A program made the position numbers and the translations under genes. This document shows, piece after piece, positions 11,474 through 26,116 of a DNA stretch of 64,000 nucleotides. The notes beneath the pieces were generated by a model, which did no database searches, was not told where the DNA came from, and worked only from the letters and a program-made list of their open reading frames with translations. This DNA comes from Dinoroseobacter shibae DFL 12 = DSM 16493 (GTDB lineage: Bacteria; Pseudomonadota; Alphaproteobacteria; Rhodobacterales; Rhodobacteraceae): assembly GCF_000018145.1 (NCBI RefSeq), contig NC_009952.1:682001-746000 (forward strand). The letters run 5' to 3'. The first letter of the stretch is position 1; every line of letters begins with the position of its first letter.

Positions 11474-12838
11474 TCAGGCCGCCCCGGCCAGCCGACCCAG
11501 CACCACCGCACTTAGCAGCCCGTTGCCCGACAGATACCCGTCATCGCCCGACCCCGACACGCCGCAGGCGGCCCCGCCCACCGCATAGAGGTTCGGCAGC
11601 AGCCCGCCGGACGCCCGCCTGACACGGCCCGTGCCGGTCACGTCGAGCCCGCCCTGGGTGTGAAACAGCGCGCCGGTCACCCGCACCCCGTGATAGGGCG
11701 GGCGCAGCCGCTTGGTCGGGTCGAACACCCGCCCGAAGTTGCAGGTCGTCGTGCCTTCGATCTCCACCATCGTCTCCACCAGCGCGCCCCCGGGCAGATC
11801 GAGCCGCGCGGCCAGCGCTTCGGGCGTGTCCGCGGTCACGATCGCGCCCGCGGCCTCAGCGGCGCGAAAATCCTCGAACTGGCGCGCGATGCTGGCAATG
11901 CGGCTGTCGAAGATGGCATAGGCCTCGCCCCCTGGCTGGGCGATGACGGTGCGCGCGGCCTCGGAATAGCCCTGCAGCTCGTTCCAGAACCGGCGGCCGT
12001 CGCGGTTGACCTGGATGCCGCCCTCCGAAAGCACCGCCCAGGTCACGAGGACCCCATGGGGATGCGCGACGTTGCCATGGCCCTGATAGGCGCCCAGATG
12101 GCGCATCCGCGCGCCCAGCGCCTCCCCCCAGCGGATCGCGTCGCCGGTATTGCCCGCATGGCCGAAATAGAGCGCGTCGCGGATCTCGGGCGTGTATGCG
12201 GCCACCATCTCGGGATTGCCGCCGAACCCGTTGCAGGCCAGGATCAGGCGGTCGCAGCCCACGGTTTCCAGCCCGCCATCGGGCCGCGCGTAGCCGACAC
12301 CCTGCACCCGGCCCGCGGCATCGGCAAAGAGCGTCGTGACATGGGCGCCGGTCAGGATGTCGATCCCGCGCGCGGTGCAGGTGTTGCGCAACCGGTCCAC
12401 CAGTTCCCGCCCCGCCCGGCTAGGCAGACCGTGCATCCGGCGGCGCGAATGGCCCGGGTAGTCGAAATCCGACACCACCGAGAACGGCATCCCGTGGGTC
12501 CCGGCCAGCCAGTCGAGCGTCGGACCCGAGGCTGCGGTCAGGGCCGCGACCACCTCCGGATCGGCCTCACCCCCGGCCTTGCGCTGGATATCGGCGGCAA
12601 AACGCTCTGCGCTGTCGTCGATCCCCGCCTCGGCCTGCAGGGTACTGCCCGCCGCCGGGATCAGCCCGGCCGAGAGCGCGGTCGACCCGGTCTGCACAGC
12701 GTCCCGCTCCAGGATCACGCAGGCGCGCCGGGCCTCCTGGCAGGCGAGGGCCGCGGTCATGCCCGCCGCGCCGCCGCCCACGATCACCGTGTCCACCGTG
12801 ACCGCGAACCCGTCCTCTGGCGGGGCCGTCACGGTCAT
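11474..12838 (-). CDS. FAD-dependent oxidoreductase (fumarate reductase/tricarballylate dehydrogenase-like)
   Basis: 454 aa. An FAD_binding_2-type flavoprotein: the dinucleotide loop is VIVGGGAAGMTAA at residues 18-30, ILERD follows, and a C-terminal FAD-closing GGAACGVSGSGDDG segment is seen near 420. Relatives are TcuA, KsdD and fumarate-reductase flavoproteins that introduce or reduce a C=C bond next to a carboxylate or ketone. It is the last gene of the minus-strand catabolic arm and overlaps the upstream lyase gene by 4 bp, so it probably acts on the same substrate. I see no signal peptide. Confidence 0.85.
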   Translation of the reverse strand: MTVTAPPEDGFAVTVDTVIVGGGAAGMTAALACQEARRACVILERDAVQTGSTALSAGLIPAAGSTLQAEAGIDDSAERFAADIQRKAGGEADPEVVAALTAASGPTLDWLAGTHGMPFSVVSDFDYPGHSRRRMHGLPSRAGRELVDRLRNTCTARGIDILTGAHVTTLFADAAGRVQGVGYARPDGGLETVGCDRLILACNGFGGNPEMVAAYTPEIRDALYFGHAGNTGDAIRWGEALGARMRHLGAYQGHGNVAHPHGVLVTWAVLSEGGIQVNRDGRRFWNELQGYSEAARTVIAQPGGEAYAIFDSRIASIARQFEDFRAAEAAGAIVTADTPEALAARLDLPGGALVETMVEIEGTTTCNFGRVFDPTKRLRPPYHGVRVTGALFHTQGGLDVTGTGRVRRASGGLLPNLYAVGGAACGVSGSGDDGYLSGNGLLSAVVLGRLAGAA

Positions 12839-13713
12839 GTGCCCGGTCCTTCATAGGCCTTTCCGCGCGCCAGCATCTCCGCCGTGCCCAGCCGCGCGTT
12901 CAGGTCCTGGAAGTCGAACATCCGGTCGCGGAAGGCCGCGTTCGATCCGGTCTCCGACAGGCTCAGATAGTAGGCTTCCGCTGTGCGGGCGAGGGCCCGG
13001 ACGATCCCGCCGGGAAAGATGACCAGCGCATATCCCAGCGCTTCGAGCTCCCGGGCGGATTTCATTGGGGTCTCGCCGCCCTCCACCATGTTGGCAAGCA
13101 GGGGTACCCGACCCCGGAACCGTTGGGCGATGGCGGTCAGTTGCGCTTCCGATTGCGGGGCCTCGATGAACAGGATGTCGGCCCCGGCCTCCAGGTAGGT
13201 CTCGGCCCGCTCCTGCGCGGCCTCGAACCCCTCCACCGCCACCGCGTCGGTGCGTGCGATGATCAGGGTTTGCGCCGCGTGGCGGGCATCGGCCATGGCG
13301 CGGATCTTGCCGGCCATTTCCTGCGCCGGGATCAGCGTCTTGTCGGCCAGATGCCCGCAGCGCTTGGGGTAGGCCTGATCCTCGATCTGGAGCGCATTGG
13401 CCCCGGCGCGCTCATAGAGCCGCATGGTGCGCTGGGCATTGAGCGCATTGCCGAAGCCCGTGTCCGCATCGATTATGATCGGCGTGCTGACCCGGTCGCG
13501 GATCAGCGACAGGGTCTCGGTCATCTCGGTCACCGAGGTCAGGCCGATATCGGGCCGCCCGAGCCGTGTGTAGGAGACCGCCGCGCCCGACAGGTAGAGC
13601 GCGGGGAACCCCGCGGCCTCGGCCAGCGAGGCGGTCAGGGCGTCATAGACCCCGGGCGCCATCACGATGCCGGGGCGGGTGAAATCCCAGCAAGGGGTGG
13701 CCGGGCCGCTCAC
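12835..13713 (-). CDS. Isocitrate lyase/PEP mutase superfamily lyase (dimethylmalate/methylisocitrate lyase-like)
   Basis: 292 aa, the length of PrpB, oxaloacetate decarboxylase and 2,3-dimethylmalate lyase. The Mg-binding DADTGFG (residues 82-88), IEDQ (110-113) and the lyase signature KRCGH (117-121, catalytic C119) are all present, indicating a true C-C lyase rather than a mutase. Products would be pyruvate (or another 2-oxoacid) plus a carboxylate. The combination with an aconitase-type hydratase in the same cluster resembles the last two steps of dimethylmaleate degradation. Overlaps both neighbours by 4 bp. Confidence 0.88.
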   Translation of the reverse strand: MSGPATPCWDFTRPGIVMAPGVYDALTASLAEAAGFPALYLSGAAVSYTRLGRPDIGLTSVTEMTETLSLIRDRVSTPIIIDADTGFGNALNAQRTMRLYERAGANALQIEDQAYPKRCGHLADKTLIPAQEMAGKIRAMADARHAAQTLIIARTDAVAVEGFEAAQERAETYLEAGADILFIEAPQSEAQLTAIAQRFRGRVPLLANMVEGGETPMKSARELEALGYALVIFPGGIVRALARTAEAYYLSLSETGSNAAFRDRMFDFQDLNARLGTAEMLARGKAYEGPGT

Positions 13714-14312
13714 AGCATCGCCTCCGCCTCGGCGCAGCTGCGGATCTCGGTGACCGTACCGAGGGAGGTCAGGGTGGCGTCGTGCACCGCCGGGTCGAAG
13801 GCGCCGCTGCCATCGCCGAGCAGGACGGTGTGGATGTTGCGCAGATGGGCGTCCCGCACGGTGGAGGCGACGCCGCCATTGGTCACGATCCCGCCGATGA
13901 TCAGCGTATCGATCTCCAGCGCGCGCAGGATGTATTCCAGACGGGTCTGGTAGAAGGCTGAATAGGCGACCTTCTCGATGGTGAAATCCGCAGGCGCGAG
14001 CGTGTCCACAAGGCCGTGCCCCCAGCCACCGGGGCGGAAATCCCCGCGCCCGAGGAAGGGGCGCAGGCGTTGCAGATGCTCGGCGATCAGCGGATTTCCG
14101 TCCCGGTCGGGCACCAGGGTGAACTGGGCCGAGATGAAGGTTCCGCCCTTTTCGCGCAGCCGGTCGCGCAGGGGGGCGATCCGGTCGGGCAGGGCCACCA
14201 GGTGCGGCGCGGTCTGGCCCGCGCGCCCGTAGGCGCCCTCTGGGTGAAGGAAGTCGTTCTGCAGATCGATGGTCAGCAGGGCGGTGCGTTTGGGGTCGAG
14301 GGGGGCGCTCAT
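13710..14312 (-). CDS. Isochorismatase-fold hydrolase lacking the catalytic Cys
   Basis: 200 aa. The isochorismatase fold is clear: LLTIDLQNDF with D16, EKVAYSAFYQT with K114, then VTNGGVASTVRDAH. Amidases of this family (maleamate, N-carbamoylsarcosine, nicotinamide) have a Cys where this protein has G147 (codon 13872-13874; TNVCV in relatives, TNGGV here). True isochorismatases such as EntB also carry Gly there and work without a nucleophile, so a vinyl-ether or other hydrolysis is more likely than a classical amidase step. Overlaps hyuA and the lyase by 4 bp each. Confidence 0.87.
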   Translation of the reverse strand: MSAPLDPKRTALLTIDLQNDFLHPEGAYGRAGQTAPHLVALPDRIAPLRDRLREKGGTFISAQFTLVPDRDGNPLIAEHLQRLRPFLGRGDFRPGGWGHGLVDTLAPADFTIEKVAYSAFYQTRLEYILRALEIDTLIIGGIVTNGGVASTVRDAHLRNIHTVLLGDGSGAFDPAVHDATLTSLGTVTEIRSCAEAEAML

Positions 14313-16378
14313 GGGGCGGGCTCCGCAGGCTGCGAGAAGGTCAGGATGAGATTGCCGAACCTGTCCACCGTGCCGGTCTGCCCGGGCTCGATCAGGATCG
14401 TGGTGTCGGGTTGCTCCAGGATGGCCGGGCCCCGGATCACCGTGCCCACAGGCAGGGCGAGGCGGGCGTAAAGGGCCGTCTCGTGCCAGCGGTCGCCGAA
14501 ATGCACGGGGCGGGTGGCGCGCGGGGTCGCGGGGCCCGCGTCCGTCGGGGCGAGGGAGGCGAGGTCGAATTTCGGTCGCCGCCCGATCACCGATGTCCGC
14601 AGGTTCAGCACCCGCCGCACGCCCCCGGGCAAGAGCCGTCCGAAGGCCGCGCCGTAGGCCGCATCGAAGGCCGCGGCGATCTCGTCGACCGTGGGCGGCT
14701 CCACCCCGTCCGCACCATGGCGCACCGGGATCGGCACCGCGACCGTATGGGTCTGGCCGAGATAGGCCATGTCGAGGCTGACCTCAACTTCGCGCCGGGC
14801 GAACCGGCTCCGCGCGGCGTCGAGGGTCGCCATCCCGTCGGCCACATGGGCCTCCAGCAGCGGCGCCAGCACCCCCGGCGTCTCCGGTCCCAGCATCCCG
14901 CCCACGGTCTGCACGAAATCCTGCCGCATATCCGCGATCACGCAGCCCATGGCCGAGGTCACGCCCGGATAGCGCGGGATGATCGCGCGCCCCAGCCCCA
15001 CCTCGCGCAGCAGCGCCCCGGCATGGAGCGCGCCGCCCCCGCCGAAGGGCATGAAGGCGAAATCCTTGGGGTCATGCCCGCGCTCGATGCTCACCAGCCG
15101 GATCGCCCCCGCCATCCGCGCATTCGCCACGGTCAGGATCGCTTCGGCCGCCGCCAACGGGTCGAGACCCAGCGGAGCGCCCACATGGGCCGCGATGGCC
15201 GACCGCGCCGCCGCCACGTCCAGCCGCGCGAGTGCGCCGCCAATCGGCCGCTCCGGATCGATCCGCCCCAGCACCACGTTGGCATCCGTGACCGTGGGCC
15301 GCGTATTGCCCTGCCCGTAAGCCACCGGGCCGGGGGTCGAGCCCGCGCTTTCCGGGCCGATCTGCAAGAGCCCGCCCTTGTCGACCCAGGCGATGGAGCC
15401 ACCGCCCGCGCCGATGGTCGCGATCTCGATCATCGGGGTGCGCACGACCATGCCGAAATCGATTGCCGTCTGCGGGCTCAGCGCCGGGGTGCCACCGGTG
15501 ACCAGCGCCACGTCGAAGCTGGTCCCGCCCATGTCGCCCGTGATCACGTCCGGAAACCCGGCGCTTTCGGCGATATAGGCCGCCGCCGTCACCCCCGCCG
15601 CGGGCCCCGACAGCGCCGTGCGCACGGGCCGGGCACACGCCGTCTCGACGCTCATCACACCGCCATTGGACTGCACGATCAGGAACTCGCCGCCAAAGCC
15701 GCCGCGCCCCAACGCCCCGCCCAGCCGGTCGAGATACCCCGCCACCTCGGGCTGAAGGTACGCGTTCAAAGCGGTGGTCGAGAACCGCTCGAACTCCCGC
15801 AATTCCGGCAGGATCTCCGCCGAGCCGCTGACATGGGGCGTGGGCCAGAGGGCGCGCACCGCCTCCAGCGCCGCCGCCTCGTTGGCCGGGTTGGCATAGC
15901 TGTTGACGAACAGCACCGCGATGGCGTCGCAGCCTGCTTCGCGCAGTTGCACCGCCGCCGCCCGCACCGCCTCCAGATCCACGGGCGTGTGCACCGTGCC
16001 ATCGGCCAGCACCCGTTCCGGCACCTCCAGGCGCAGGTCGCGGGGCACCACGGGCGTGAAATCGCCCCGCAGCCCCCAGGTCTGCCGCCGGTCCCGGCGC
16101 CGCATCTCCAACACGTCGCGGAACCCTTGCGTGGTGATCACGCCCACCTTCGCGCCCTTGCGCTCCAGCAGGGCATTGGTCCCGGCAGTCGTGCCATGGA
16201 CCACCGCGCCCAGGGCGCCGAAATCCGCCACATGCACGCCGATCCCGTCAAGAAATCCGCCCGACTGGTCGGGCCGCGAGGTCGGCACCTTGGCCACCCG
16301 CGCGGTGCCCGCCGCCTCGTCGAGAACGAACACATCGGTGAAGGTGCCCCCCACATCCACGCCCACCAGAACGCTCAT
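14309..16378 (-). CDS. hyuA: Hydantoinase A / 5-oxoprolinase-type ATPase subunit
   Basis: 689 aa. The HyuA subunit of ATP-dependent cyclic-amide hydrolases (N-methylhydantoinase, 5-oxoprolinase, caprolactamase) or of related carboxylases. It begins with the ASKHA phosphate loop GVDVGGTFTD (residues 6-15), followed by VVHGTTAGTNALLERKG and GDMGGTSFDVAL near 280. The substrate is not predictable from sequence. It is paired with hyuB by a 4-bp overlap and lies in the minus arm of the catabolic island. The enzyme would activate and open a lactam, imide or similar bond with ATP. Confidence 0.93.
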   Translation of the reverse strand: MSVLVGVDVGGTFTDVFVLDEAAGTARVAKVPTSRPDQSGGFLDGIGVHVADFGALGAVVHGTTAGTNALLERKGAKVGVITTQGFRDVLEMRRRDRRQTWGLRGDFTPVVPRDLRLEVPERVLADGTVHTPVDLEAVRAAAVQLREAGCDAIAVLFVNSYANPANEAAALEAVRALWPTPHVSGSAEILPELREFERFSTTALNAYLQPEVAGYLDRLGGALGRGGFGGEFLIVQSNGGVMSVETACARPVRTALSGPAAGVTAAAYIAESAGFPDVITGDMGGTSFDVALVTGGTPALSPQTAIDFGMVVRTPMIEIATIGAGGGSIAWVDKGGLLQIGPESAGSTPGPVAYGQGNTRPTVTDANVVLGRIDPERPIGGALARLDVAAARSAIAAHVGAPLGLDPLAAAEAILTVANARMAGAIRLVSIERGHDPKDFAFMPFGGGGALHAGALLREVGLGRAIIPRYPGVTSAMGCVIADMRQDFVQTVGGMLGPETPGVLAPLLEAHVADGMATLDAARSRFARREVEVSLDMAYLGQTHTVAVPIPVRHGADGVEPPTVDEIAAAFDAAYGAAFGRLLPGGVRRVLNLRTSVIGRRPKFDLASLAPTDAGPATPRATRPVHFGDRWHETALYARLALPVGTVIRGPAILEQPDTTILIEPGQTGTVDRFGNLILTFSQPAEPAP

Positions 16379-18072
16379 ACCGGCAGCTCCTGCCAGGCGG
16401 GACCGTAGGTTTCGGTCGCCACCTCGGGGCTCAGATAGCCAAGCGCCACGTCCCGCGCGACACGTTCCGGCGCGCGCGCCGCCGCCGGGCCGTAGCCCCC
16501 GCCGCCCGGCGTCTCCAACCGGACCCGCTGCCCGCGCCGCAGCTTCATGCCCACGGCTTTCGAGGCCAGCGCCGGGGTTTGCCAGCCTGCGTCGGTCTCA
16601 TGGGCGAACACATTGAGCGCCGCCGCCCCGCCGCCCGCGACCCCTTGCGGCGCGAACCGCCCGCGCTCGCCGAACAGAAACGCCTCGGCCTCCTCCTCCA
16701 GCAACTCGATCTCGTAAACCGCGCCGAGGCCCCCACGCTGCGCCCCCGCGCCCGCGCTGTCGGGGCGCAGCGCCCATTGCCGGAACATCACGGGATAGGC
16801 CGCCTCCAGGATCTCCGCAGGTGGGATTGTGGCAGTGGAAATCGGTGCATTGCCGTGGTTCAGCCCGTCGCTCTCGAGGCTGCCACCATGCCCGCCGCCG
16901 TAGAAGGAAAACATCACCCAGCGCGCCCCGTTGGCCCGCGTCCCGGCAATCGACAGCGCGTTGATCGTGCCATAGGCATTGGCAACCACCCGCTCCGGCG
17001 CTGCCTGCGCGGCGGCGGAAAAGATCACGTCGATCATGCGCAGGATCGTCTCGGTATACCCCCCCGTGGGTGCGGGGAATTCCGCTGCAAGCAGCGATCC
17101 CTCGGGCACCGTCACCGTGATCGGGCGCATCACCCCGGCATTGGCGGGCAGGTTCGGAAAGATATGCTTGATCGCCACGTAGGCCGTGGCAATCGCTGTG
17201 GGCAGGGCGATGTTGACCGGCCCCTTCACCGCGCCCGCCGTGCCGGTGAAATCGAGCGTCAGCCGGTCGCCCGTGACCTCCAGCGCGACCCGGATCGGCA
17301 GCGCCTCCGGGTCGATCCCGTCATTGTCGAGGAAATCCTCCGCCTTCCACCGGCCATCGGGCAGGGCGGCGATCTCGGCGCGCATGAGCGTCTCGGCCCG
17401 GTCGGTCAGGGCGGTCAGGGCCGCCTGCACGGTGTCCGTGCCATAGTCGTTCAGCAGGGCGTCGAGCCGTTTTGCGCCCAGATCCAGTGCGCTCAACTGC
17501 CCGTTCAGATCGCCCTGGGCCGAGGCGGGCAGGCGGGTGTTGCGCAGCAGGATATCGACGATGTCCTGTTGCAGCACACCCGCGCGCACCAGTTTCACCG
17601 GCGGCAGGACGAAGGCCTCCTGAAACACCTCCATGGCCGCGGGGTTGTAGTTGCCCGGCACCGCCCCGCCCACATCGTGCCAATGGCCGACCGAGGCGAG
17701 GTAGCAGACCAGCTTGCCATCCCGGAAGAACGGCCGCACCAGCCGCATGTCGCTCAGGTGGGTGCCGCCGATATGGGCGTCGTTGAAGATATAGACATCG
17801 CCCTCGGCCAGGTCGCCGTCGCGCGCGGCCTTCTCGATCACCGCCTTCACCGCAAAGGCCATCACACCCACGAAGATCGGCAGGCCGGACTTGCCCTGCA
17901 CCAGCGTGTCGCCGGTCTCTGCATGGTAAAGCCCGTGGGAGGCATCATGCGCCTCTGCGATGATCGGGTTGAACGCCGCGCGGAAGAGCGTCGCGTCCAT
18001 CTCGTCGGCGATCTGCTCCATCCGCCCGGCGAGCACGGCCAGGGTGATCGGGTCGATCTCGGGCGTGGTCAT
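16375..18072 (-). CDS. hyuB: Hydantoinase B / 5-oxoprolinase-type hydrolase subunit
   Basis: 565 aa from the ATG at 18072, which overlaps the stop of the preceding gene (ATGA); the reading frame stays open further upstream but without a plausible start. HyuB signatures include DPITLAVLAGRMEQIADEMD at the N-terminus, the conserved FNDAHIGGTHLSDM metal-site-like segment near 107-120, and a Gly-rich C-terminal ETPGGGGYGP. It forms the second subunit of the ATP-dependent hydrolase with HyuA. Confidence 0.93.
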   Translation of the reverse strand: MTTPEIDPITLAVLAGRMEQIADEMDATLFRAAFNPIIAEAHDASHGLYHAETGDTLVQGKSGLPIFVGVMAFAVKAVIEKAARDGDLAEGDVYIFNDAHIGGTHLSDMRLVRPFFRDGKLVCYLASVGHWHDVGGAVPGNYNPAAMEVFQEAFVLPPVKLVRAGVLQQDIVDILLRNTRLPASAQGDLNGQLSALDLGAKRLDALLNDYGTDTVQAALTALTDRAETLMRAEIAALPDGRWKAEDFLDNDGIDPEALPIRVALEVTGDRLTLDFTGTAGAVKGPVNIALPTAIATAYVAIKHIFPNLPANAGVMRPITVTVPEGSLLAAEFPAPTGGYTETILRMIDVIFSAAAQAAPERVVANAYGTINALSIAGTRANGARWVMFSFYGGGHGGSLESDGLNHGNAPISTATIPPAEILEAAYPVMFRQWALRPDSAGAGAQRGGLGAVYEIELLEEEAEAFLFGERGRFAPQGVAGGGAAALNVFAHETDAGWQTPALASKAVGMKLRRGQRVRLETPGGGGYGPAAARAPERVARDVALGYLSPEVATETYGPAWQELPV

Positions 18073-18644
18073 GCAGGGTCTTTCCGGGCCTGCATCGCGG
18101 CGGCCATGTCGTTCCAGACCTCCTGGCGGGTGATCTTGCTGTCGGTCAGCTCGAACCGGTCGATGAAGCGGATGCCCTCGAACGGCGTGTCGTCCGGCCA
18201 GAGGCCCGACAGGGTGCCGTGGCAATGGACCACCGCGCCGGTCTCGGACGGGGCGGTGTCGATGCCCTCGAAGGTCTTGGTGACCCGCTTGTAACGCTCG
18301 GCGGACCAGGCCACGAGCGCGTCGAGATCGGTCATGCGGACCCCGCCCGGAAAGATCATCTCGAACTCCGCGCCCAGATACCCCGCGGCGGTGTCGAGAT
18401 CGCGCGCCTCCATCGCCGCGAGGTACGCCTGCACGGTCTCGGCCGGGTCGGGCAGGGGCGGCGCGGGGAAGCGGTTCTGCCCGCCGCGCATGTAGCCAGA
18501 GGCCGCGACCTCATGGGTCAGCACGGTGATCCCGTCGGGGTCGGCCGGGATGACCAGCCGTGCGCCATCGGTCAGGGCCTTGCCCAGCCGGGTCTTCACC
18601 TCGTCCCCGTATCCCGCGATCAGATGTACCTCGATAACCGGCAT
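18069..18644 (-). CDS. Tautomerase (4-OT-like) domain fused to NTF2/SnoaL-like domain
   Basis: 191 aa. After Met removal the N-terminal residue is Pro, followed by VIEVHLIAGYGDEVKTRLGK, typical of the 4-oxalocrotonate tautomerase family, where Pro1 is the catalytic base; this domain covers roughly residues 1-65. Residues ~75-185 look like an NTF2/SnoaL fold, which often carries isomerase or hydrolase activity or a small-molecule pocket. The start at 18644 has GGGAGGG about 9 nt upstream. It is the first gene of the minus arm, divergent from GntR. The two-domain order is unusual to me. Confidence 0.75.
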   Translation of the reverse strand: MPVIEVHLIAGYGDEVKTRLGKALTDGARLVIPADPDGITVLTHEVAASGYMRGGQNRFPAPPLPDPAETVQAYLAAMEARDLDTAAGYLGAEFEMIFPGGVRMTDLDALVAWSAERYKRVTKTFEGIDTAPSETGAVVHCHGTLSGLWPDDTPFEGIRFIDRFELTDSKITRQEVWNDMAAAMQARKDPA

Positions 18645-18674
18645 ATGCGTCGTCCCTCCCCCTCTTGCAGATCG

Positions 18675-18702
18675 TGACCTGTCTGCTTTGCAATACAGGT
18701 CA
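18675..18702. promoter_or_regulatory. Candidate GntR operator between the divergent arms
   Basis: A perfect 8-bp inverted repeat: TGACCTGT (18675-18682), 12-nt spacer, ACAGGTCA (18695-18702). The arm centres are 20 bp apart, two helical turns on one face. It lies in the 157-bp region between the tautomerase start (18644) and the GntR start (18802). This is where a HutC-type repressor controlling both arms would bind. Binding by this GntR protein is inferred. Confidence 0.5.
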
Positions 18703-18801
18703 TGGTATCTCAAAAACCGCAAAAGTGTAGTCTGTGTCGTGCCATTTCTTGCGCTTTGCGCGGACCGGGCTAATCTTCACCGTGGAGAAGGAGGGGTTTC
18801 A

Positions 18802-19602
18802 GTGGACGGTGGCAGCGGCACCCATCTGCCCGAAGGCGGCAAGGCCCGGCGGGTCTACCTGCAGCTGCGGGACATGCTCAGCCGTGGCGCGTTGCGCCCG
18901 GGCGATACCCTGCCGGGCGAGCAGAAGATGGCCGCCCAGTACGGCGTCAGCCGGGTCACGATCCGCCGCGCGCTGGAGGCCCTGGCCGATGACGGGCTGA
19001 TCGACAAGCGGGCGGGGGCGGGCAGCACCGTGCGGGAGACCGCGCAGGACACGCCGCTGGCGGGCAACCTCGCCTCACTCATGCCGCAGCTCGTGGAGAT
19101 GGGCCAGCGCACCGAGGCGCGGCTGCTGTCCTTTGCCTATGGTCCCGCGCCGGCGGCGGTGGTCCGGGCGCTGGGGCTGGCGGAGGCGGTCACGGTGCAG
19201 ACCGCGGTCCGCGTGCGCCTGCTGCGCGGGGTGCCGTTCTCGCACCTGACGACCCATGTGCCCGCCGAGATCGCGACGAACTATTCCGAAGCGGATCTCG
19301 CGACAACGCCGCTCTTTCGCCTGCTGGAGCGCAGCGGAGTGCGGATCGCGTCCGCGCGCCAGTCCGTGACCGCGACCCTGGCCACGCCGGAGGTGGCCGC
19401 GGCGCTCGATGTGAGCGTCGGGTCGGCCCTGACGGCGCTGACCCGGATCGTGACCGATGATCAGGGGCAGTGGGTGGAGTACCTCTCGGCGCTTTACCGG
19501 CCGGACCTTTACCGGCTGGACATGACCCTGAGCCGGGTCGGCGCGGGGGAGGATCGCCATTGGCAGCCGGTGATCGGCGCGCCGCCGGAGACCGACCCAT
19601 GA
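18802..19602 (+). CDS. GntR family (HutC-type) transcriptional regulator
   Basis: 266 aa from the GTG at 18802, chosen for the GGAGAAGGAGGGG ribosome-binding stretch ending 6 nt upstream. An N-terminal winged helix spans about residues 14-80 (GEQKMAAQYGVSRVTIRRAL carries the recognition helix). A UTRA ligand-binding domain of the HutC subfamily occupies ~95-250. It should repress the adjacent catabolic genes until the substrate or an intermediate binds. It overlaps the aconitase-type large subunit by ATGA, so the regulator is part of the plus arm and probably autoregulated. Confidence 0.92.
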   Translation: MDGGSGTHLPEGGKARRVYLQLRDMLSRGALRPGDTLPGEQKMAAQYGVSRVTIRRALEALADDGLIDKRAGAGSTVRETAQDTPLAGNLASLMPQLVEMGQRTEARLLSFAYGPAPAAVVRALGLAEAVTVQTAVRVRLLRGVPFSHLTTHVPAEIATNYSEADLATTPLFRLLERSGVRIASARQSVTATLATPEVAAALDVSVGSALTALTRIVTDDQGQWVEYLSALYRPDLYRLDMTLSRVGAGEDRHWQPVIGAPPETDP

Positions 19603-20993
19603 GCACGCCGCGGACCCTGCTGGAGAAGCTCTGGGCGGCCCATGAGGTTACCCGCCGGGAAGATGGCGCGTCGCTTCTGTGGGTGGACCGGCACCTGCTG
19701 CACGAGGGGTCGCACCATGCCTTTGCCAAGCTGGCCGAGCGGGGCCTGTCCGTGGCCGCCCCGGCGCAGACCTTTGCGGTGATGGACCACTACGCGCCGA
19801 CCCGCGACCGGGCGGCGGAGGGGGCGACGCCGGAGATCCGGGCGATGATCGCCCGGCTGCGCGAGAACGCGGAAATTCACCAAATTCGGCTTTTCGATCT
19901 TTTCGACCGCGATCAGGGGATCGTCCATGTGATCGGACCGGAGCAGGGGCTGACCTTGCCGGGGCTGACGATCAACTGCGGCGACAGCCATACCTCGACC
20001 CATGGGGCGTTCGGGGCGCTGGCCTTCGGGATTGGGGCGACCGAGGTGGCCCATGTGCTGGCGACCCAGACAGTCTGGCAGACCCGGCCGAAGACCTTGC
20101 GCCTGCGGTTCGACGGGCGGCTCGGGCCGGGGGTGGGCGCCAAGGACCTCGCACTGGCCTGGATCGCGGCCCTGGGCTCGGACGGCGCGCGCGGCCATGC
20201 CATCGAATACACCGGCGAGGCGGTGCGGCGCCTGTCGATGGAGGGGCGGATGACGCTTTGCAACCTGTCGATCGAGGGCGGTGCGAAGCTGGGCCTGATC
20301 GCGCCGGACGAGACGACATTTGCTTACCTGCGGGGAAGGCCCCATGCGCCCGACGGGGCCGATTGGGGCCGCGCGGTGGAAGACTGGGCCGCCTTGCGCA
20401 GCGACGAGGACGCCGTGTTCGACCGGGAAGAAACCCTCGATTGTGCGGCGATTGCGCCGGTCGTGACCTGGGGCACGCGGCCTGACCAGGCCATTCCGGT
20501 GACCGAAAACCTTCCCCGCGGGGAAGGTTCCGAGGTTAATTCTGCGTTAACTTATATGGGGTTACGGGCCGGGGCGCCGATTGCAGGCACGCCCGTGGAT
20601 CAGGTCTTCATCGGCTCCTGCACCAATGGCCGGATCGAGGATCTGCGCGCCGCGGCCGCCGTGCTGGCCGGGCGGCGCGCACGGGTGCCCGGGCAGGTCA
20701 CCCCCGGGTCCGCGCGGATCAAGGCGCAGGCGGAGCAGGAGGGTCTGGCGGAGATCTTCATTGCCGCGGGGCTGGAATGGACCGAGGCGGGCTGTGCCAT
20801 GTGCGTGGGCATGAATGGGGACCTCGTGGCGCCGGGCAAGCGCTGTGCCTCTTCTACCAACCGGAATTTCCGGGGGCGGCAGGGGCCGGGGGCGCGGACG
20901 CATCTGATGTCGCCCGCCATGGTCGCCGCCGCCGCCGTCACCGGCGAGATCACCGATGTGCGGCCCCTTCTGGCCGGGCGGGCGGTGGCATGA
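19599..20993 (+). CDS. Aconitase-superfamily hydratase, large (LeuC-like) subunit
   Basis: 464 aa, the length of bacterial LeuC. The three [4Fe-4S] ligands are present: C341 in GSCTNGR, and C399 and C402 in GCAMCVGMNGD. HEGSHHAF near the N-terminus and INCGDSHTSTHGAFG near 130 follow the family closely. With the next gene it forms a two-subunit dehydratase/hydratase acting on a malate-type hydroxy-dicarboxylate (isopropylmalate, citraconate, maleate or dimethylmaleate). The catabolic context argues against a leucine-pathway role. An unusual 22-bp perfect palindrome interrupts the variable linker at 20508-20529. Confidence 0.93.
   Translation: MSTPRTLLEKLWAAHEVTRREDGASLLWVDRHLLHEGSHHAFAKLAERGLSVAAPAQTFAVMDHYAPTRDRAAEGATPEIRAMIARLRENAEIHQIRLFDLFDRDQGIVHVIGPEQGLTLPGLTINCGDSHTSTHGAFGALAFGIGATEVAHVLATQTVWQTRPKTLRLRFDGRLGPGVGAKDLALAWIAALGSDGARGHAIEYTGEAVRRLSMEGRMTLCNLSIEGGAKLGLIAPDETTFAYLRGRPHAPDGADWGRAVEDWAALRSDEDAVFDREETLDCAAIAPVVTWGTRPDQAIPVTENLPRGEGSEVNSALTYMGLRAGAPIAGTPVDQVFIGSCTNGRIEDLRAAAAVLAGRRARVPGQVTPGSARIKAQAEQEGLAEIFIAAGLEWTEAGCAMCVGMNGDLVAPGKRCASSTNRNFRGRQGPGARTHLMSPAMVAAAAVTGEITDVRPLLAGRAVA
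20508..20529. repeat. 22-bp perfect palindrome inside the LeuC-like gene
   Basis: AACCTTCCCCG joined without spacer to its reverse complement CGGGGAAGGTT. It lies in frame and encodes the ENLPRGEG stretch of the linker between the two catalytic halves, a variable region in LeuC proteins. It is followed by an AT-richer patch that also stands out in this GC-rich gene. It may be an inserted palindromic element tolerated in the linker. Confidence 0.6.
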
Positions 20994-21649
20994 GCGCGCG
21001 CGGCTGGACCCGGCACACCGGGCGCGCGGCGGCCCTGCCGATGGAGGCGGTCGATACCGACCAGCTGATCCCGGCGCGGTTCATGTCCACGCCGCGGGCC
21101 GAAGGGTACGGGCGATACCTGCTGCATGATCTGCGCTTTTGCGATGGCTGTGTGCCGCGGCCCGAGTTCGCCCTGAACCGGGTCGAGAATGCGGGTGCCA
21201 CGATCCTGGTGACGGGGCGGAATTTCGGGTCCGGCTCGTCGCGGGAGGCGGCGGTCTATGCCCTGATGGATTTTGGTATCCGGGCAGTGGTCGCGCCGAG
21301 CTTCGGGGACATTTTCGCGGCCAACGCGGTGAATAACGGGCTTTGCCCGGTGCAGGTGCGGCCCGAGGATGGCGCGGCCCTGCTGCGCGGGCTGGAACGC
21401 GGGGCGCGGCAGATGACCGTGGATCTGGAGGCTTGCGCGCTGCGCGGGCCGCTGGGGACCGTGGGCTTCACCCTCGACCCCGTGTGGCGACGCAAGCTGA
21501 TCGAGGGTCTGGACGATATCGACCTGACCCGCGCCTACGGGGCGGAGATTGCGGCGTTTCGGGCGGCCGATGCCGCGGCGCGGCCCTGGGCGGCGCTGGA
21601 CATGACAGAAAAGACCACAGGGAGGGGCCGCCCGGAGCGGTCCGCATAA
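20990..21649 (+). CDS. Aconitase-superfamily hydratase, small (LeuD-like) subunit
   Basis: 219 aa; swivelling-domain subunit that completes the active site of the LeuC-like partner. It shows DTDQLIPARF near residue 22 and the substrate-binding loop NFGSGSSREAAVYAL near 83. In isopropylmalate isomerases this loop normally reads GSSREHAPWAL; the HAP to AAV change suggests a different side chain on the substrate. Overlaps the large subunit by ATGA. Confidence 0.9.
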   Translation: MSARGWTRHTGRAAALPMEAVDTDQLIPARFMSTPRAEGYGRYLLHDLRFCDGCVPRPEFALNRVENAGATILVTGRNFGSGSSREAAVYALMDFGIRAVVAPSFGDIFAANAVNNGLCPVQVRPEDGAALLRGLERGARQMTVDLEACALRGPLGTVGFTLDPVWRRKLIEGLDDIDLTRAYGAEIAAFRAADAAARPWAALDMTEKTTGRGRPERSA

Positions 21650-21664
21650 AAGGGAGAAACCAGA

Positions 21665-22675
21665 ATGAAACACTACGTACTGAGCGGCGCGCTGGCCGCA
21701 GGCCTCGGCCTCGGCGGGGCGGCGCAGGCGACCGAGACGCTGACGGCGGTCCACGCCTTCCCCACGACCCTGATCTATACCCAGAGCTTCCTGGAGTTCG
21801 TGGACAAGGTGAATGCCGCGGGCGAGGGCGTGGTGCAGATCGAGGTGCGCGGCGGGCCCGAGGCGATCGGCATGTTCCAGCAGCCCGACGCGGTGCGCGA
21901 CGGGATCGTGGACATGGTCTATACGCCGGGCTCGTTCTACGGCGGCACGGTGCCCGAGAAGGACGCCATGGTGGCGTCCAACCTGACGGCGGTCGAGGCG
22001 CGCGAGAATGGTGGCACCGACCTGATGAACCAGATCCACCAGGAGAAGATGGGGGTCTATTACCTCGGCTGGTTCGACAGCGGGGTGTCCTACAACCTGT
22101 GGACCAAGGATGAGCCGCAATTCGAGGAGAACGGCGATCTGAGCGTGGAGGGCATCAAGCTGCGCGGCAACGCGGTCTACAACGCCTTCTTCACCGAGTA
22201 TCTGGGCGCGCAGGTGATCGACCTGCCGACCACGGATGTCTATGCCGCGCTGGAGCGGGGCGTGGTGGATGCCACGGGCTGGACCCAGATCGGGCTGATC
22301 GACCTGAAATGGAACGAGTTCCTGAACTACCGGATCGAGCCGAATTTCTTTTCCACCGACCTCGGCGTGATCGTGAACCTGGAGAAATGGGAGAGCCTGA
22401 GCGACGAGGCGAAAACCATCCTTCAGGATGTGGCGATCCAGCATGAGAGGGACAGTGTCGAGGCCCTGCGCGCCAAGCGGGACGCGGATTTCGCAGCGCT
22501 CGAAGAGGGCGGCATGCAGGTCGTCAGCCTGGAGGGCGAGGCCAAGGAGCGTTACCTCGCGGCGGCGCGGGAGAAGACCTGGGAGCGGATGCGCGGCCTG
22601 ATGGCGGAGCATCCTTCGGGCGACGGCAATTACGACACGCTGATCTCTCTCTACTACGATCCGGCGCTGGACTGA
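21665..22675 (+). CDS. dctP: TRAP transporter substrate-binding protein (DctP family)
   Basis: 336 aa. The Sec signal peptide spans about residues 1-23 (cleavage near AQA-TE). The periplasmic binding protein of a TRAP transporter delivers carboxylate-type ligands; MVYTPGSFYGGTVPE and DVYAALERGVVDATGWTQ follow DctP architecture. The family's ligand Arg is likely in IKLRGN. AGGGAGA lies just before the ATG. It lies between the hydratase genes and the membrane subunits, so the imported compound should be the island's substrate. A stable hairpin follows it. Confidence 0.93.
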   Translation: MKHYVLSGALAAGLGLGGAAQATETLTAVHAFPTTLIYTQSFLEFVDKVNAAGEGVVQIEVRGGPEAIGMFQQPDAVRDGIVDMVYTPGSFYGGTVPEKDAMVASNLTAVEARENGGTDLMNQIHQEKMGVYYLGWFDSGVSYNLWTKDEPQFEENGDLSVEGIKLRGNAVYNAFFTEYLGAQVIDLPTTDVYAALERGVVDATGWTQIGLIDLKWNEFLNYRIEPNFFSTDLGVIVNLEKWESLSDEAKTILQDVAIQHERDSVEALRAKRDADFAALEEGGMQVVSLEGEAKERYLAAAREKTWERMRGLMAEHPSGDGNYDTLISLYYDPALD

Positions 22676-22681
22676 GTGTGC

Positions 22682-22709
22682 GGCGCGCCGGCGGGATCGT
22701 CGGCGCGCC
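22682..22709 (+). terminator. Intercistronic hairpin after dctP
   Basis: A perfect 9-bp stem GGCGCGCCG (22682-22690) / CGGCGCGCC (22701-22709) with a 10-nt loop, without a following T-run. It lies between the binding-protein gene and the small permease gene. Such hairpins commonly protect the dctP message and reduce read-through, giving excess binding protein over permease; this role is inferred from position. Confidence 0.6.
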
Positions 22710-22718
22710 TTGCCCGCG

Positions 22719-23225
22719 ATGCGCGTGCTCAGCCGGACATATGATTTCATGATCCTCGCCATGGCGGTGCTCGCCGGGGCGGGGCTGGTGTGGTTGATGG
22801 TGTCGGTCATCGCGTCGGTGGCGATGCGCAATCTGGGGATGCAGCCCTTCGCGTGGCTGTTCACCTCGGCCGAGTACAGCATCCTCTATCTGACCATGCT
22901 GGGCGCGCCCTGGCTGGTGCGCGAGAAGGGGCATGTGCATATCGAGCTGGTCACCGCCGCCTTGCCCGAGGGGCTGCGGCAGGTGGTGAGCCGGTTCGTG
23001 GCGCTCTTGTGTGTGCTGGTCTGCGTGGTGCTGGCGTGGAAGGGCGTGGAGCTGTGCCTGCGCAACCTGCAGCGCAACGACTTCGACGTGCGGGCCTATT
23101 TCTATCCCCGGTGGCTGCTGACGATTTCCTTCCCGGTCGCGTTCGGCTTCATGGCGGTGGAATTCGCGCGGTTCGTGGTCGGGCGCGAGATCCTGCATTC
23201 GGGCGAGGCGGGGATACACGAGTAG
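22719..23225 (+). CDS. dctQ: TRAP transporter small permease (DctQ family)
   Basis: 168 aa from the ATG at 22719 (a TTG at 22710 would add three residues). Four membrane segments are visible, starting at DFMILAMAVLAGAGLVWLM; the SAEYSILYLTMLGAPWLVRE region (near 50-70) and GHVHIEL are typical of DctQ. It bridges the binding protein and the large permease in the inner membrane. The stop is immediately followed by the dctM ATG. Confidence 0.92.
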   Translation: MRVLSRTYDFMILAMAVLAGAGLVWLMVSVIASVAMRNLGMQPFAWLFTSAEYSILYLTMLGAPWLVREKGHVHIELVTAALPEGLRQVVSRFVALLCVLVCVVLAWKGVELCLRNLQRNDFDVRAYFYPRWLLTISFPVAFGFMAVEFARFVVGREILHSGEAGIHE

Positions 23226-24539
23226 ATGGACTGGTTCGAGGCTTTGGCCCTGCTGCTGGGCGCGATCGTGGCGCTCATGGCGTTGGGCATGCCCGTGGCA
23301 CTGGCCTTTCTGGCGGCCAATATCCTCGGGGCCTGGGTGTTCATGGGCGGCGAGCGGGGGATCGTGCAGCTGTTGAACAACGGGTTGGGGGCGTTGACGA
23401 CCTATGCCCTGGTGCCGATCCCGTTGTTCCTGCTGATGGGGGAGATCTTCTTTCATACCGGGCTGGGGGGGCGGATGTTCACGGCCATCGACCGGCTTCT
23501 GGGCCGGCTGCCGGGGCGGTTGAGTTATGTCACGGTGCTGGGGGGGACGGGGTTTTCGACCCTGTCGGGCTCGTCCATGGGGTCCACGGCGCTGCTGGGC
23601 AGCCTGATGGTGCCGGAGATGAATGCGCGGGGCTACAAGTCGCACATGAGCATCGGGCCGATCCTCGGGACCGGGGGGCTGGCGATCATCATCCCGCCCT
23701 CGGCCCTTGCGGTGCTGCTGGCGACGCTGGCGCAGATCGATGTGGGCGCGTTGCTGATCGCGGGGGTGATCCCGGGGCTGATGCTGGCGGGGTTCTATAT
23801 CGCCACGATCTGGATCCAGACCCGGCGCGACCCGAGTGCGGCCCCGGCCTACGAGGTGGCGGAGGTGTCGCTGGGCGCGAAGCTCGGGCTGCTGTTGCGG
23901 GACGTGGTGCCCATGGTGGGGGTGATGGTGGTGATCGTGTCGCTGATGATCTTCGGCATCGTCACCCCGTCGGAGGCGGCGGCCTTTGGCGCGCTGGGTG
24001 TGATCATCCTCGCGGCGGCGTTCCGCTGCCTGACGGTGGAGGCGCTGCGGCGCTCGGTGGTGGGCGCGCTGAAGGTGACGCTGATGGCCTACATGATCGT
24101 GTTCGGCTCGGCCACGTTCAGCCAGCTTCTGGCGTTCTCCGGGGCGTCCGGCGGGCTGATCGGCTGGGCCACGGGGTTCGACCTGGACCCGATCTGGATG
24201 CTGCTGGCGATGTTCGGGGTTCTGCTGGTGCTGGGGATGTTCATGGAGCAGATCTCGATCATGCTGCTGACGGTGCCGATCTTCTTCCCGCTGGCGCAAA
24301 GCCTCGGGTTTGATCTGATCTGGTTCGCGCTGATCATGCTGCTGGCGCTGGAGATCAGCTTCACCACCCCGCCCTTCGGGCTGCTCCTGTTCGTGATGAA
24401 GGGGGTGGCGCCGCCCAGCACCACCATGCGGGAGATCTACCTCGCCGCGATCCCGTTCATCGCGTGCTCGCTGTTGCTGGTGGCGCTCTTGATCCTGTTC
24501 CCGCCTCTGGCCACCTGGCTGCCGGGGCTGGGCGGCTAG
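23226..24539 (+). CDS. dctM: TRAP transporter large permease (DctM family)
   Basis: 437 aa, about 12 membrane segments. It is the Na+- or H+-coupled transport subunit of the TRAP system. LLMGEIFFHTG and GGTGFSTLSGSSMGSTALLG near residues 95-125, and the C-terminal ALEISFTTPPFGLLLFVMKG, are DctM hallmarks. It starts one base after the dctQ stop. Together with dctP and dctQ it forms a complete importer for the catabolic island. Confidence 0.95.
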   Translation: MDWFEALALLLGAIVALMALGMPVALAFLAANILGAWVFMGGERGIVQLLNNGLGALTTYALVPIPLFLLMGEIFFHTGLGGRMFTAIDRLLGRLPGRLSYVTVLGGTGFSTLSGSSMGSTALLGSLMVPEMNARGYKSHMSIGPILGTGGLAIIIPPSALAVLLATLAQIDVGALLIAGVIPGLMLAGFYIATIWIQTRRDPSAAPAYEVAEVSLGAKLGLLLRDVVPMVGVMVVIVSLMIFGIVTPSEAAAFGALGVIILAAAFRCLTVEALRRSVVGALKVTLMAYMIVFGSATFSQLLAFSGASGGLIGWATGFDLDPIWMLLAMFGVLLVLGMFMEQISIMLLTVPIFFPLAQSLGFDLIWFALIMLLALEISFTTPPFGLLLFVMKGVAPPSTTMREIYLAAIPFIACSLLLVALLILFPPLATWLPGLGG

Positions 24540-24547
24540 ACAGTGTT

Positions 24548-24570
24548 GCGCGGGCTGCTCTAGCCTGCGC
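24548..24570 (+). other. Hairpin between dctM and the acyl-CoA ligase
   Basis: GCGCGGGCT (24548-24556) pairs with AGCCTGCGC (24562-24570) over nine positions including one G-T wobble, with a 5-nt loop. It lies in the 59-bp gap before the ligase gene, with no T-run, so it is more likely an mRNA processing or attenuating structure than a full terminator. Confidence 0.4.
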
Positions 24571-24598
24571 GCACCCGGACGGGGACGAGGAACTTTCG

Positions 24599-26116
24599 AT
24601 GAACTTTGCGCTTTGGCTTCAGAGGACTGCGGCGCGCTGCCCGGATGCGCCGGCGCTTTACACCGGCACGCGGCTGGAGACGGATTATGCCGGGTTCGCG
24701 GACCAGGCGGCCCGGATCGGCGCGGCCCTGTCGGCGCGCGGTCTGGGCAAGGGCGACCGTATCGGCGTGTTCATGAAGAACAGCACCGATTACCTGCGCG
24801 TGCTCTATGGCATCTGGTGGTGCGGGGCCGCCGCGATCCCGATCAATTCCAAGCTGCACCCGCGGGAGGCGGCCTGGATCCTGTCCGATGCGGAGGCTGC
24901 GCTGTGCCTCGTGACCCCGGACCTGGCCGAGGGCTTGGCGGAGGCTGCGCCCGACTGCGCCTGCGTGGTCACCGGCAGTGCGGCCTTTGGCGAAATGCTG
25001 GCCGCCCCGCCCATGGCGGCACCGGTGGCACGGGCCAGCGGCGATCTGGCCTGGCTGTTCTATACCTCGGGTACGACCGGCAAGCCCAAGGGCGTGATGA
25101 TGAGCTTTGCCACGCTGACGGCCATGACGCTGAGCTATTTCGTGGACGTGGACGAGGTGACGGCGCAGGACGCGATCCTCTATTCGGCGCCCATGAGCCA
25201 CGGGGCCGGGGTCTACAACTTCATGCATGTGCTGCGCGGCGCGCGCCACGTGGTGCCCGAGAGCGGCGGGTTCGACCCGGCGGAGATCTTCGATCTGGCC
25301 CGCGAGATGCGCCAGGTGAGCCTGTTCGCCGCGCCGACGATGGTGCGGCGGATGATCGATGTGGCCAAGGCGCGGGGCGACACGGGCGACGGCATCAAGA
25401 CGATCGTCTATGCGGGCGGGCCGATGTACCTGGCCGATATCATCGAGGCGGTGGAGGTTCTGGGCGACCGGTTCGTGCAGGTTTACGGGCAGGGGGAGTA
25501 CCCCATGAGCATCACCGCGCTCAGCCGCGCGGATGTCTCGGACCGCAGCCATCCGGATTGGCAGGCAAGGCTGGCCTCGGTCGGGGTGGCGCAGACGATC
25601 AGCGATGTCGCGATCCTCGATGCCGAGGGCCGGCCGGTACCCCCGGGCGAGACCGGCGAGATCGCGGTGCGCGGCGCGGGGCTGATGCTGGGCTACTGGA
25701 ACCGGCCGGAGGCGACGGCGGAGACGATCAGGGACGGCTGGCTCTGGACCGGCGACATGGGCCGGATGGACGCGGACGGGTATGTCACCATGGTGGACCG
25801 GTCCAAGGACATGATCATCTCGGGGGGCTCGAACGTCTATCCGCGCGAGGTGGAAGAGGTGCTCCTGACCCATCCGCAGGTGGCGGAGGTGTCGGTGGTG
25901 GGTCGGCCCCACGCGGAATGGGGCGAGGAGGTGGTGGCCTTCGTGGTCCCGGCCCCGGGGGCGGAGATGGATCCGGGGGTGCTGGATGCCCATTGCCTGT
26001 CGCAGATCGCCCGGTTCAAGCGGCCCAAGGCCTATATCGCGCTGCCCGAATTGCCGAAGAACAATTACGGCAAGGTGCTGAAGATCGAGCTGCGCGCGCG
26101 GTTGACGAAAGGCTGA
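24599..26116 (+). CDS. AMP-forming acyl-CoA ligase (ANL superfamily)
   Basis: 505 aa. Activates a carboxylate to its acyl-CoA through an acyl-adenylate. The P-loop YTSGTTGKPKG spans residues 155-165; the hinge motif RSKDMIISGGSNVYPREVEE lies near 400, and the catalytic C-terminal Lys is in PKNNYGKVLK. The chain length resembles medium-chain or aromatic-acid ligases; the substrate is unknown. As the last gene of the plus arm it plausibly activates either the imported acid or the carboxylate released by the lyase. GAGGAA lies 7 nt before the ATG. Confidence 0.92.
   Translation: MNFALWLQRTAARCPDAPALYTGTRLETDYAGFADQAARIGAALSARGLGKGDRIGVFMKNSTDYLRVLYGIWWCGAAAIPINSKLHPREAAWILSDAEAALCLVTPDLAEGLAEAAPDCACVVTGSAAFGEMLAAPPMAAPVARASGDLAWLFYTSGTTGKPKGVMMSFATLTAMTLSYFVDVDEVTAQDAILYSAPMSHGAGVYNFMHVLRGARHVVPESGGFDPAEIFDLAREMRQVSLFAAPTMVRRMIDVAKARGDTGDGIKTIVYAGGPMYLADIIEAVEVLGDRFVQVYGQGEYPMSITALSRADVSDRSHPDWQARLASVGVAQTISDVAILDAEGRPVPPGETGEIAVRGAGLMLGYWNRPEATAETIRDGWLWTGDMGRMDADGYVTMVDRSKDMIISGGSNVYPREVEEVLLTHPQVAEVSVVGRPHAEWGEEVVAFVVPAPGAEMDPGVLDAHCLSQIARFKRPKAYIALPELPKNNYGKVLKIELRARLTKG

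Follow-up and report, generated by a model that had tools for sequence, protein, structure and literature searches.

Which compound is broken down by a catabolic island that joins a putative cyclic amide hydrolase to an aconitase-type hydratase and a carbon–carbon lyase? This question is raised by a locus of Dinoroseobacter shibae DFL 12 (= DSM 16493), situated within bases 682001-746000 of NC_009952.1. This stretch of 64,000 nucleotides from the 4.4-Mb genome is called the window in what follows. The island lies at window positions 11474-26116 and comprises 13 genes, i.e., a GntR regulator and 12 others, in two divergent arms. A preliminary description of this DNA had listed these genes, and all 13 were found at the places and in the families that it gave. 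Based on gene content and gene neighborhood, we propose that the operon degrades a maleimide with methyl and 2-carboxyethyl substituents at positions 2 and 3 to pyruvate and glutarate, hematinic acid being the most likely candidate. The probability of this tentative reading is estimated at about 0.42.

The putative pathway is built around six core genes. On the minus strand, these encode a C–C lyase of the isocitrate lyase/phosphoenolpyruvate mutase (ICL/PEPM) superfamily (12835..13713; PF13714, 2e-43), an isochorismatase-fold protein without catalytic Cys (13710..14312; PF00857, 2e-31), HyuA (14309..16378; PF01968, PF05378, and PF19278), which is the ATP-binding subunit of a cyclic amide hydrolase of the caprolactamase/oxoprolinase/hydantoinase type, and its partner subunit HyuB (16375..18072; PF02538, 5e-170). 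On the plus strand, they encode a LeuC-type large subunit of the aconitase family (19599..20993; PF00330, 6e-153) and a LeuD-type small subunit (20990..21649; PF00694, 2e-21). With HyuA as query, at least 576 confirmed relatives were found in a genome collection. The best 80 loci, mostly from Rhodobacterales, were kept, of which 59 span at least 20 kb and the other 21 are shorter, and every open frame in them was compared with the window proteins by BLASTP. All six core genes are present in the same divergent layout in each of the 59 longer loci, and in 45 of these all twelve genes other than an acyl-CoA ligase occur together. The island is a real functional unit, as had been supposed, and it is widely conserved and common to marine roseobacters and soil bacteria.

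Orthologs of the lyase (at least 56% identity, the next value being 49%) occur in 51 of the 295 genomes of the family, the own genome counted. The isochorismatase-fold protein is found in 26 of 385 genomes of a class sample, across 18 families, and in 8 of 398 genomes of a phylum sample, one of the eight lying outside the class. In the HyuA tree, the nearest relatives of the window protein are from Paracoccaceae. HyuA matches are also present on plasmids (30 records) of Azospirillum, Sulfitobacter, Paraburkholderia, Tistrella, Roseomonas, Allorhizobium, Neorhizobium, and Variovorax. The cluster was present in all six annotated records that were examined, the Tistrella record being without an adjoining lyase. 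Of 32 more distant loci compared by the same BLAST, 29 list HyuA, 23 the lyase, and 21 LeuC. Some of these loci, such as L148, are cut by a contig end, and L168 and L171 list no HyuA, so that in remote relatives of the window the core is either looser or harder to detect.

The genes that join the island in other genomes point to its end product. In an unguided tally of extra neighbors over the 80 loci, a CaiB-type CoA-transferase came first (10) and an acyl-CoA dehydrogenase, GcdH, came next (9). A direct search identified gcdH in 14 of the 80 loci, which corresponds to 14 of the 69 loci whose sequence extends for 1200 bases or more beyond the final gene of the cluster. In 12 loci, the gcdH frame starts -52 to +33 bases from the end of the gene for a FAD enzyme that closes the minus arm, and in two Yoonia loci it is located past the genes of a tripartite ATP-independent periplasmic (TRAP) importer. 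The best solved relative of GcdH, 4w9u (E 3e-211), is generically named acyl-CoA dehydrogenase; the next nine, from E 7e-177, are named glutaryl-CoA dehydrogenases. The motif SG[YF]RS, with an Arg that we take to be a glutarate-site residue, is present in all 14 cluster GcdH proteins and in three Tistrella-type copies. The best family of the CaiB protein is the succinate-glutarate CoA-transferase family NF052585. In the Tistrella-type genus (G326, G454, G551), both genes are embedded in an operon ordered GntR-HyuB-HyuA-ISOCH-GcdH-CaiB-LeuC-LeuD, where ISOCH is the isochorismatase-fold gene. Each of these genomes has another gcdH, so the operon gene is a second copy. D. shibae itself carries gcdH (82% identity) and a CaiB ortholog (63%) away from the island. 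Because gcdH and CaiB have been attached or embedded in separate lineages, glutarate is favored over propionate as the end product and is considered probable. The propionyl-CoA end that was proposed earlier is not supported.

The identity of the substrate can be reasoned backward from this product. Lyases of the ICL/PEPM superfamily cleave R1-C(OH)(COOH)-CH(COOH)-R2, which yields an oxoacid together with R2-CH2-COOH. For the latter to be glutarate, R2 would have to be CH2CH2COOH. Methylisocitrate and dimethylmalate lyases act on substrates in which R1 is methyl. With the same R1, the substrate before hydration would be 2-methyl-3-(2-carboxyethyl)maleate and the corresponding imide would be hematinic acid. 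In heme and bilins, the pyrroles that bear a propionate carry a methyl beside it. Hematinic acid had been considered before the gcdH neighbors were found, and glutarate was spelled out only afterward. That the substrate is hematinic acid or a close isomer is a plausible assignment that falls somewhat short of even odds. Hematinic acid is a monopyrrole that is reported to arise when chlorophyll and heme are broken down, and both it and maleimides are known from leaves and sediments (PMC7318184, PMC12860425); its origin from heme is also reported in PMC8131568.

The proposed route would begin with uptake by the TRAP importer, or elsewhere by a Liv-type ABC transporter. The FAD enzyme and a tautomerase-NTF2 fusion might then produce the maleimide from its reduced or isomeric forms. 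HyuAB, whose family is clear and whose substrate is predicted, would open the imide with ATP. The isochorismatase-fold protein would complete ammonia release, with the neighboring cis-carboxylate as nucleophile. The hydratase and the lyase also belong to clear families; on the predicted substrates, the former would hydrate methyl-homoaconitate and the latter would split methyl-homoisocitrate into pyruvate and glutarate. Lastly, as suggested by gene linkage, CoA transfer to glutarate and glutaryl-CoA dehydrogenase would yield crotonyl-CoA. The smallest annotated version of the cluster, in Paraburkholderia, consists of a regulator, a Liv-type transporter, the hydratase, HyuB, HyuA, the isochorismatase-fold protein, and the lyase; its annotation shows neither a FAD enzyme nor a tautomerase alongside. 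This minimal set matches the four predicted maleimide steps, in which the imide is opened, the half-amide is hydrolysed, and the product is hydrated and then cleaved.

Imide opening is assigned to HyuAB because of its domains: all three HyuA domains and the one HyuB domain of Pfam are present, which places the pair in the HyuAB/oxoprolinase type. The nearest solved chain of HyuA is the N-methylhydantoinase 7hk5. The pair shares the two-subunit, ATP-dependent hydrolysis of cyclic amides with the caprolactamase CapAB and other HyuAB lactamases (PMC8453981). Unlike CapAB, it scores below the caprolactamase cut-offs of NCBIfam (490 bits for CapA and 321 bits for CapB, each against 1000), and the core is without the aminotransferase and dehydrogenase that would follow. 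The caprolactamase models are nevertheless the best NCBIfam matches of both subunits, which favors an alternative in which a lactam or a reduced pyridine, e.g., 2-piperidone or 6-oxotetrahydronicotinate, reaches glutarate by another route while the hydratase and lyase serve a linked branch. A nicotinate route to glutarate is present in Azorhizobium, and on a plasmid of Sulfitobacter sp. S190 a cluster with a molybdopterin oxidoreductase, 6-hydroxynicotinate reductase, and UPF0280 (L199, 19703-25998) adjoins the operon. However, the hydratase and the lyase are never missing from the 59 longer loci, the six core genes include no aminotransferase or semialdehyde dehydrogenase, and no nicotinate gene is found among the 16 recurrent neighbor families, which were named by eye and partly scanned. 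A lactam or pyridine is therefore regarded as improbable, and as the least probable of the alternatives weighed here.

For hematinic acid, imide opening would be followed by the isochorismatase-fold protein. In an alignment of 138 rows (125 distinct sequences, window included), Asp16 and Lys114 are present in all rows, while the Cys position of the T-x-x-C-V motif is occupied by Gly in 137 rows and by Ala in one; the solved relatives 3kl2 and 6xix have Cys at the aligned position. A role as Cys-amidase was rejected, as the catalytic Cys is absent from all 138 rows. In public annotation, the protein is called 'cysteine hydrolase' at L195 11025-11648, L196 14019-14633, L198 13992-14600, L199 14001-14603, and L200 13995-14609, five records that are not among the aligned rows. 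In the maleimide/succinimide route, an imidase opens the imide and a half-amidase then hydrolyses the half-amide. The same order is predicted for the island, which would differ by its ATP-dependent opening, its Cys-less second enzyme, and a disubstituted product that is hydrated and cleaved. We propose that the isochorismatase-fold protein performs half-amide (maleamate) or anhydride hydrolysis. Substituted maleamic acids are cleaved by their own cis-carboxylate, according to PMC3913492. As a consequence of such self-cleavage, a half-amide enzyme would not need Cys. Taken together, the families fit an ATP-dependent opening of a cyclic amide ahead of a hydratase-lyase tail. At the family level, the earlier outline, in which a ring is opened and the product is hydrated and cleaved, is thus upheld, while the substrate and all enzyme activities continue to be inferred.

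The hydratase subunits pass the cut-offs of the leuC and leuD models (605 vs. 560 bits and 155 vs. 116 bits, respectively). A role in leucine synthesis is doubtful, as the genome has a second leuCD-like stretch elsewhere and LeuCD is a conserved component of the cluster. In L175, the one lineage scanned among the distant loci with LeuC at 34-41% identity, the hydratase scores above the cut-offs of both TIGR01343, the homoaconitase family (436 bits), and TIGR02087, the LeuD/DmdB model (159 bits). This homoaconitase-family hydratase would suit a homoaconitate-like substrate. The lyase has a PEP_mutase domain, the motif K[KR]CGH (as KRCGH), and the motif NMVEGG, which places it among the C–C lyases of the ICL/PEPM superfamily. 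Among its nearest solved relatives are methylisocitrate lyase, petal death protein, and dimethylmalate lyase, and it scores below the PrpB cut-off (TIGR02317; 278.5 vs. 354.4 bits). In its loop SGAAVxYTRLGRPD, the two Args of TRLGR are present in 106 of 115 parsed orthologs, 15 more being unparsed. Both are absent from PrpB and petal death protein, and they possibly form the site for an extra carboxylate.

Two known pathway ends resemble this tail. In the 2-methylcitrate cycle, an aconitase-type hydratase hydrates a methyl-substituted aconitate, and PrpB, an ICL/PEPM lyase, cleaves the product to give pyruvate. Hydration and ICL/PEPM cleavage to pyruvate are also predicted for the island. The predicted substrate is one CH2 longer, which would give glutarate instead of succinate; moreover, the island lyase falls below the PrpB threshold and imide opening would precede. 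Secondly, nicotinate fermentation by Eubacterium barkeri ends with the dimethylmaleate hydratase DmdAB and dimethylmalate lyase, yielding propionate and pyruvate. Here too, a two-subunit hydratase of the aconitase family is combined with an ICL/PEPM lyase, and the small subunit of L175 passes the LeuD/DmdB model, but the island adds the HyuAB and isochorismatase-fold steps and the linkage to gcdH. Proteins of the MmgE/PrpD family are present in the cluster at L188 (7914-9332 and 13592-14935), L198 (7856-9286), and L200 (8035-9432), next to LeuCD in the latter two. They were identified with Pfam in L188 and from annotation in the other two loci, and look-alikes occur in L177, L189, and L190. 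It was considered whether PrpD-family proteins replace LeuCD as a general rule, which was rejected, as PrpD adjoins LeuCD in Neorhizobium and Roseomonas. Perhaps they have a role in isomerization.

Besides the core, the minus arm contains the FAD_binding_2 oxidoreductase (11474..12838; PF00890, 4e-57), a member of the flavocytochrome c/fumarate reductase/ketosteroid dehydrogenase superfamily, and the tautomerase-NTF2(SnoaL) fusion with N-terminal Met-Pro (18069..18644; PF01361 and PF12680). They are found in 55 and 57 of the 59 longer loci, respectively. A role of the FAD enzyme as fumarate reductase or tricarballylate dehydrogenase was rejected, as the subfamily cut-offs are missed (TIGR01813, 235.6 bits against 285; TcuA, 139 bits against 369). 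Its GYLSGN aligns with NRLGGN of fumarate reductases and is without that Arg, which presumably binds the substrate in the latter. GYLSGN agrees with a dehydrogenation beside the carbonyl of an imide, and our guess is that the enzyme would produce the maleimide from its reduced counterpart, which the reduced ring D of chlorins would supply. In the fusion, Met-Pro is kept in all 19 aligned rows, and a function as double-bond isomerase is likewise a guess. Via these two enzymes, the substrate range may include dihydro or exocyclic isomers of hematinic acid, which is a weak suggestion.

The importer is encoded in the plus arm by the TRAP binding protein DctP (21665..22675; PF03480), the small permease DctQ (22710..23225; PF04290), and the large permease DctM (23226..24539; PF06808, 1e-71). 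Among the 59 longer loci, some DctP homolog is present in 52, DctQ in 50, and DctM in 52. The nearest solved chain of DctP is 4mnc (E 5e-50); a structure model of this protein (pLDDT 85.7) took no part in the conclusion. Other loci vary in this respect. L073 (Roseovarius) lists no TRAP genes and has a periplasmic binding protein and a branched-chain-type ABC ATPase (both by Pfam) after the FAD gene (15204-18897), as if the importer had been swapped. Five loci (L011, L014, L035, L046, L060) have a different TRAP system, with DctP 50-54% identical. It is accompanied by some of a set of proteins, named by eye, that resemble Asp/Glu or hydantoin racemase, 3-hydroxyacyl-CoA dehydrogenase, aminotransferase, and opine dehydrogenase. 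This variant may be a module by which a related compound is taken up and fed in.

The plus arm ends with the AMP-forming acyl-CoA ligase (24599..26116; PF00501), which stands outside the conserved cluster. It had been counted among the parts of the pathway; at 40% identity or more it occurs in none of the 80 related loci, with weaker matches of 31-36% in three, and it was rejected as a core gene. Just past the FAD gene of L055 (16022-18947), there is a malonyl-CoA decarboxylase (Pfam) with a ligase 36% identical to the one of the window. Perhaps the window ligase activates glutarate, or it is unrelated. Loss of the genome's own CaiB as an explanation for the ligase is unsupported, as the frame of the CaiB ortholog is open over 375 aa and the stop flagged in it is apparently at the end of the match. 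The ligase also bears on an alternative along the lines of the preliminary description, in which the same chemistry acts on another imide or diacid (dimethyl- or methylethylmaleimide, citraconimide, dimethylmaleate) and propionate or butyrate is activated with CoA by the ligase. Its presence in the window favors this route, as do the NMVEGG motif of the lyase and its likeness to dimethylmalate lyase and petal death protein; moreover, methylethylmaleimide is a chlorophyll product as well, according to PMC12860425. In contrast, the recurrent partners of the cluster are gcdH and the glutarate-type CaiB transferase, and the ligase is missing from all 80 related loci. This route is considered unlikely, though it is the most credible of the alternatives.

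Several observations weigh against the degradation of hematinic acid to glutarate. No gcdH is found in the stretch covered at 66 of the 80 loci (55 of the 69 with room). GcdH reaches 214 bits on the glutaryl model NF045552 of NCBIfam, which has a cut-off of 470 bits, and the general FadE model scores higher (244); the CaiB protein reaches 540 of the 750 bits set for NF052585. An association in the class sample speaks for the link to glutarate, as gcdH is present in 23 of the 26 carriers of the isochorismatase-fold protein and in 194 of the 359 other genomes (Fisher p 4e-4); however, genome size may inflate it, and not every carrier has the whole cluster, as L168 and L171 illustrate. In the Tistrella-type genus, the lyase ortholog is found at a second locus. 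In L188 and L189, this locus also has a tautomerase-like protein, a FAD enzyme, and ABC transporter genes, to which the scan of L188 added two PrpD-family proteins and a racemase; L190 lists fewer partners. Furthermore, LeuC and LeuD agree with models of ordinary isopropylmalate isomerase, and the isochorismatase-fold protein is without the Cys of known amidases. The roles given to the FAD enzyme and the tautomerase-NTF2 fusion, and to PrpD and racemase proteins in other lineages, are guesses. PrpD proteins, racemases, and alternative TRAP modules of other lineages are not accounted for by the proposed route.

Could the link to glutarate be incidental, gcdH having moved beside a pathway for an imide or hydantoin to which it is unrelated, either by chance or for the sake of shared regulation? 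The many loci where gcdH is not nearby would agree with this, as would the fact that seven of the 14 gcdH loci belong to one clade, the Marivita group. The distribution on the HyuA tree (110 rows, 17 with gcdH) speaks against it. The gcdH label needs 10 changes, of which 7 are forced by supported branches, when loci cut by contig ends are taken as lacking gcdH, and 8 changes when the 12 such rows are left out; these counts do not tell gains from losses, and seven gcdH rows are from one Marivita-like clade. Moreover, gcdH is found at both ends of the cluster and as an embedded second copy in the Tistrella-type genus. An incidental link is also unlikely, to a degree between the two alternatives discussed above, and a pathway from hematinic acid to glutarate is preferred.

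Both arms appear to be under common control. The regulator (18802..19602, plus strand; PF00392 and PF07702) is of the GntR/HutC type (UTRA) and is present in 55 of the 59 longer loci. Upstream of the tautomerase gene, an operator-like inverted repeat, CTGTATT-N6-AATACAG, matches the consensus with 2 of 14 mismatches (18676..18701, no strand). When up to 3 of 14 mismatches are allowed, 47 of the 69 divergent regions contain the repeat, and the spacer has 6 bases in all but one of these 47. By comparison, it is met in 10 of 690 places chosen at random within these loci and in 28 of 690 sequences obtained by simple shuffling. This contrast is somewhat flattering, since the consensus was derived from the divergent regions in which it was tested. 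Via this conserved site, GntR would repress both arms.

The junctions within the arms had been described as nearly all 4-bp overlaps, which is correct for the minus arm (5 of 5) and not for the plus arm (2 of 6), where the other four junctions are gaps of 15, 34, 0, and 59 bases. The starts of the tautomerase-NTF2, HyuB, GntR, LeuC, LeuD, and ligase genes were refined from translations and sequence. In L023, the genes for LeuC, HyuB, and the isochorismatase-fold protein are each split in two open frames, and this copy may be broken or misassembled. A NosR-like protein (8358-10448, minus strand; NF046105, 449 bits against a cut-off of 1000) adjoins the cluster in the window, so that a denitrification gene may border the island. 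The region with this nosR-like gene on one flank of the cluster gave no hint of its function, nor did the region with methyltransferase, WbqC, and glycosyltransferase families on the opposite flank.

The preliminary description knew of no described pathway with this set of genes. In agreement with this, no account of the gene set, or of a bacterial route consuming hematinic acid or the maleimides of leaves and sediments, was found among the matches listed from an open-access library, subscription papers being largely outside the scope of the search. It is possible, with somewhat more doubt than attaches to the substrate itself, that the island represents a bacterial route mineralizing a monopyrrolic end product of chlorophyll, heme, or bilins, in which a homolog of the methylcitrate tail works on a substrate one carbon longer and a Cys-less enzyme exploits the cis-carboxylate of its substrate. 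Chlorophyll is made and broken down at a scale of 10^12 kg per year (PMC7318184). If the proposal is correct, a widespread operon of marine roseobacters and soil bacteria would supply a missing last step of tetrapyrrole recycling, and its genes would be markers for tracking the recycling of tetrapyrrole fragments. Proteins that are now annotated as 'hydantoinase', 'cysteine hydrolase', and 'leuCD' would become testable enzymes with defined substrates.

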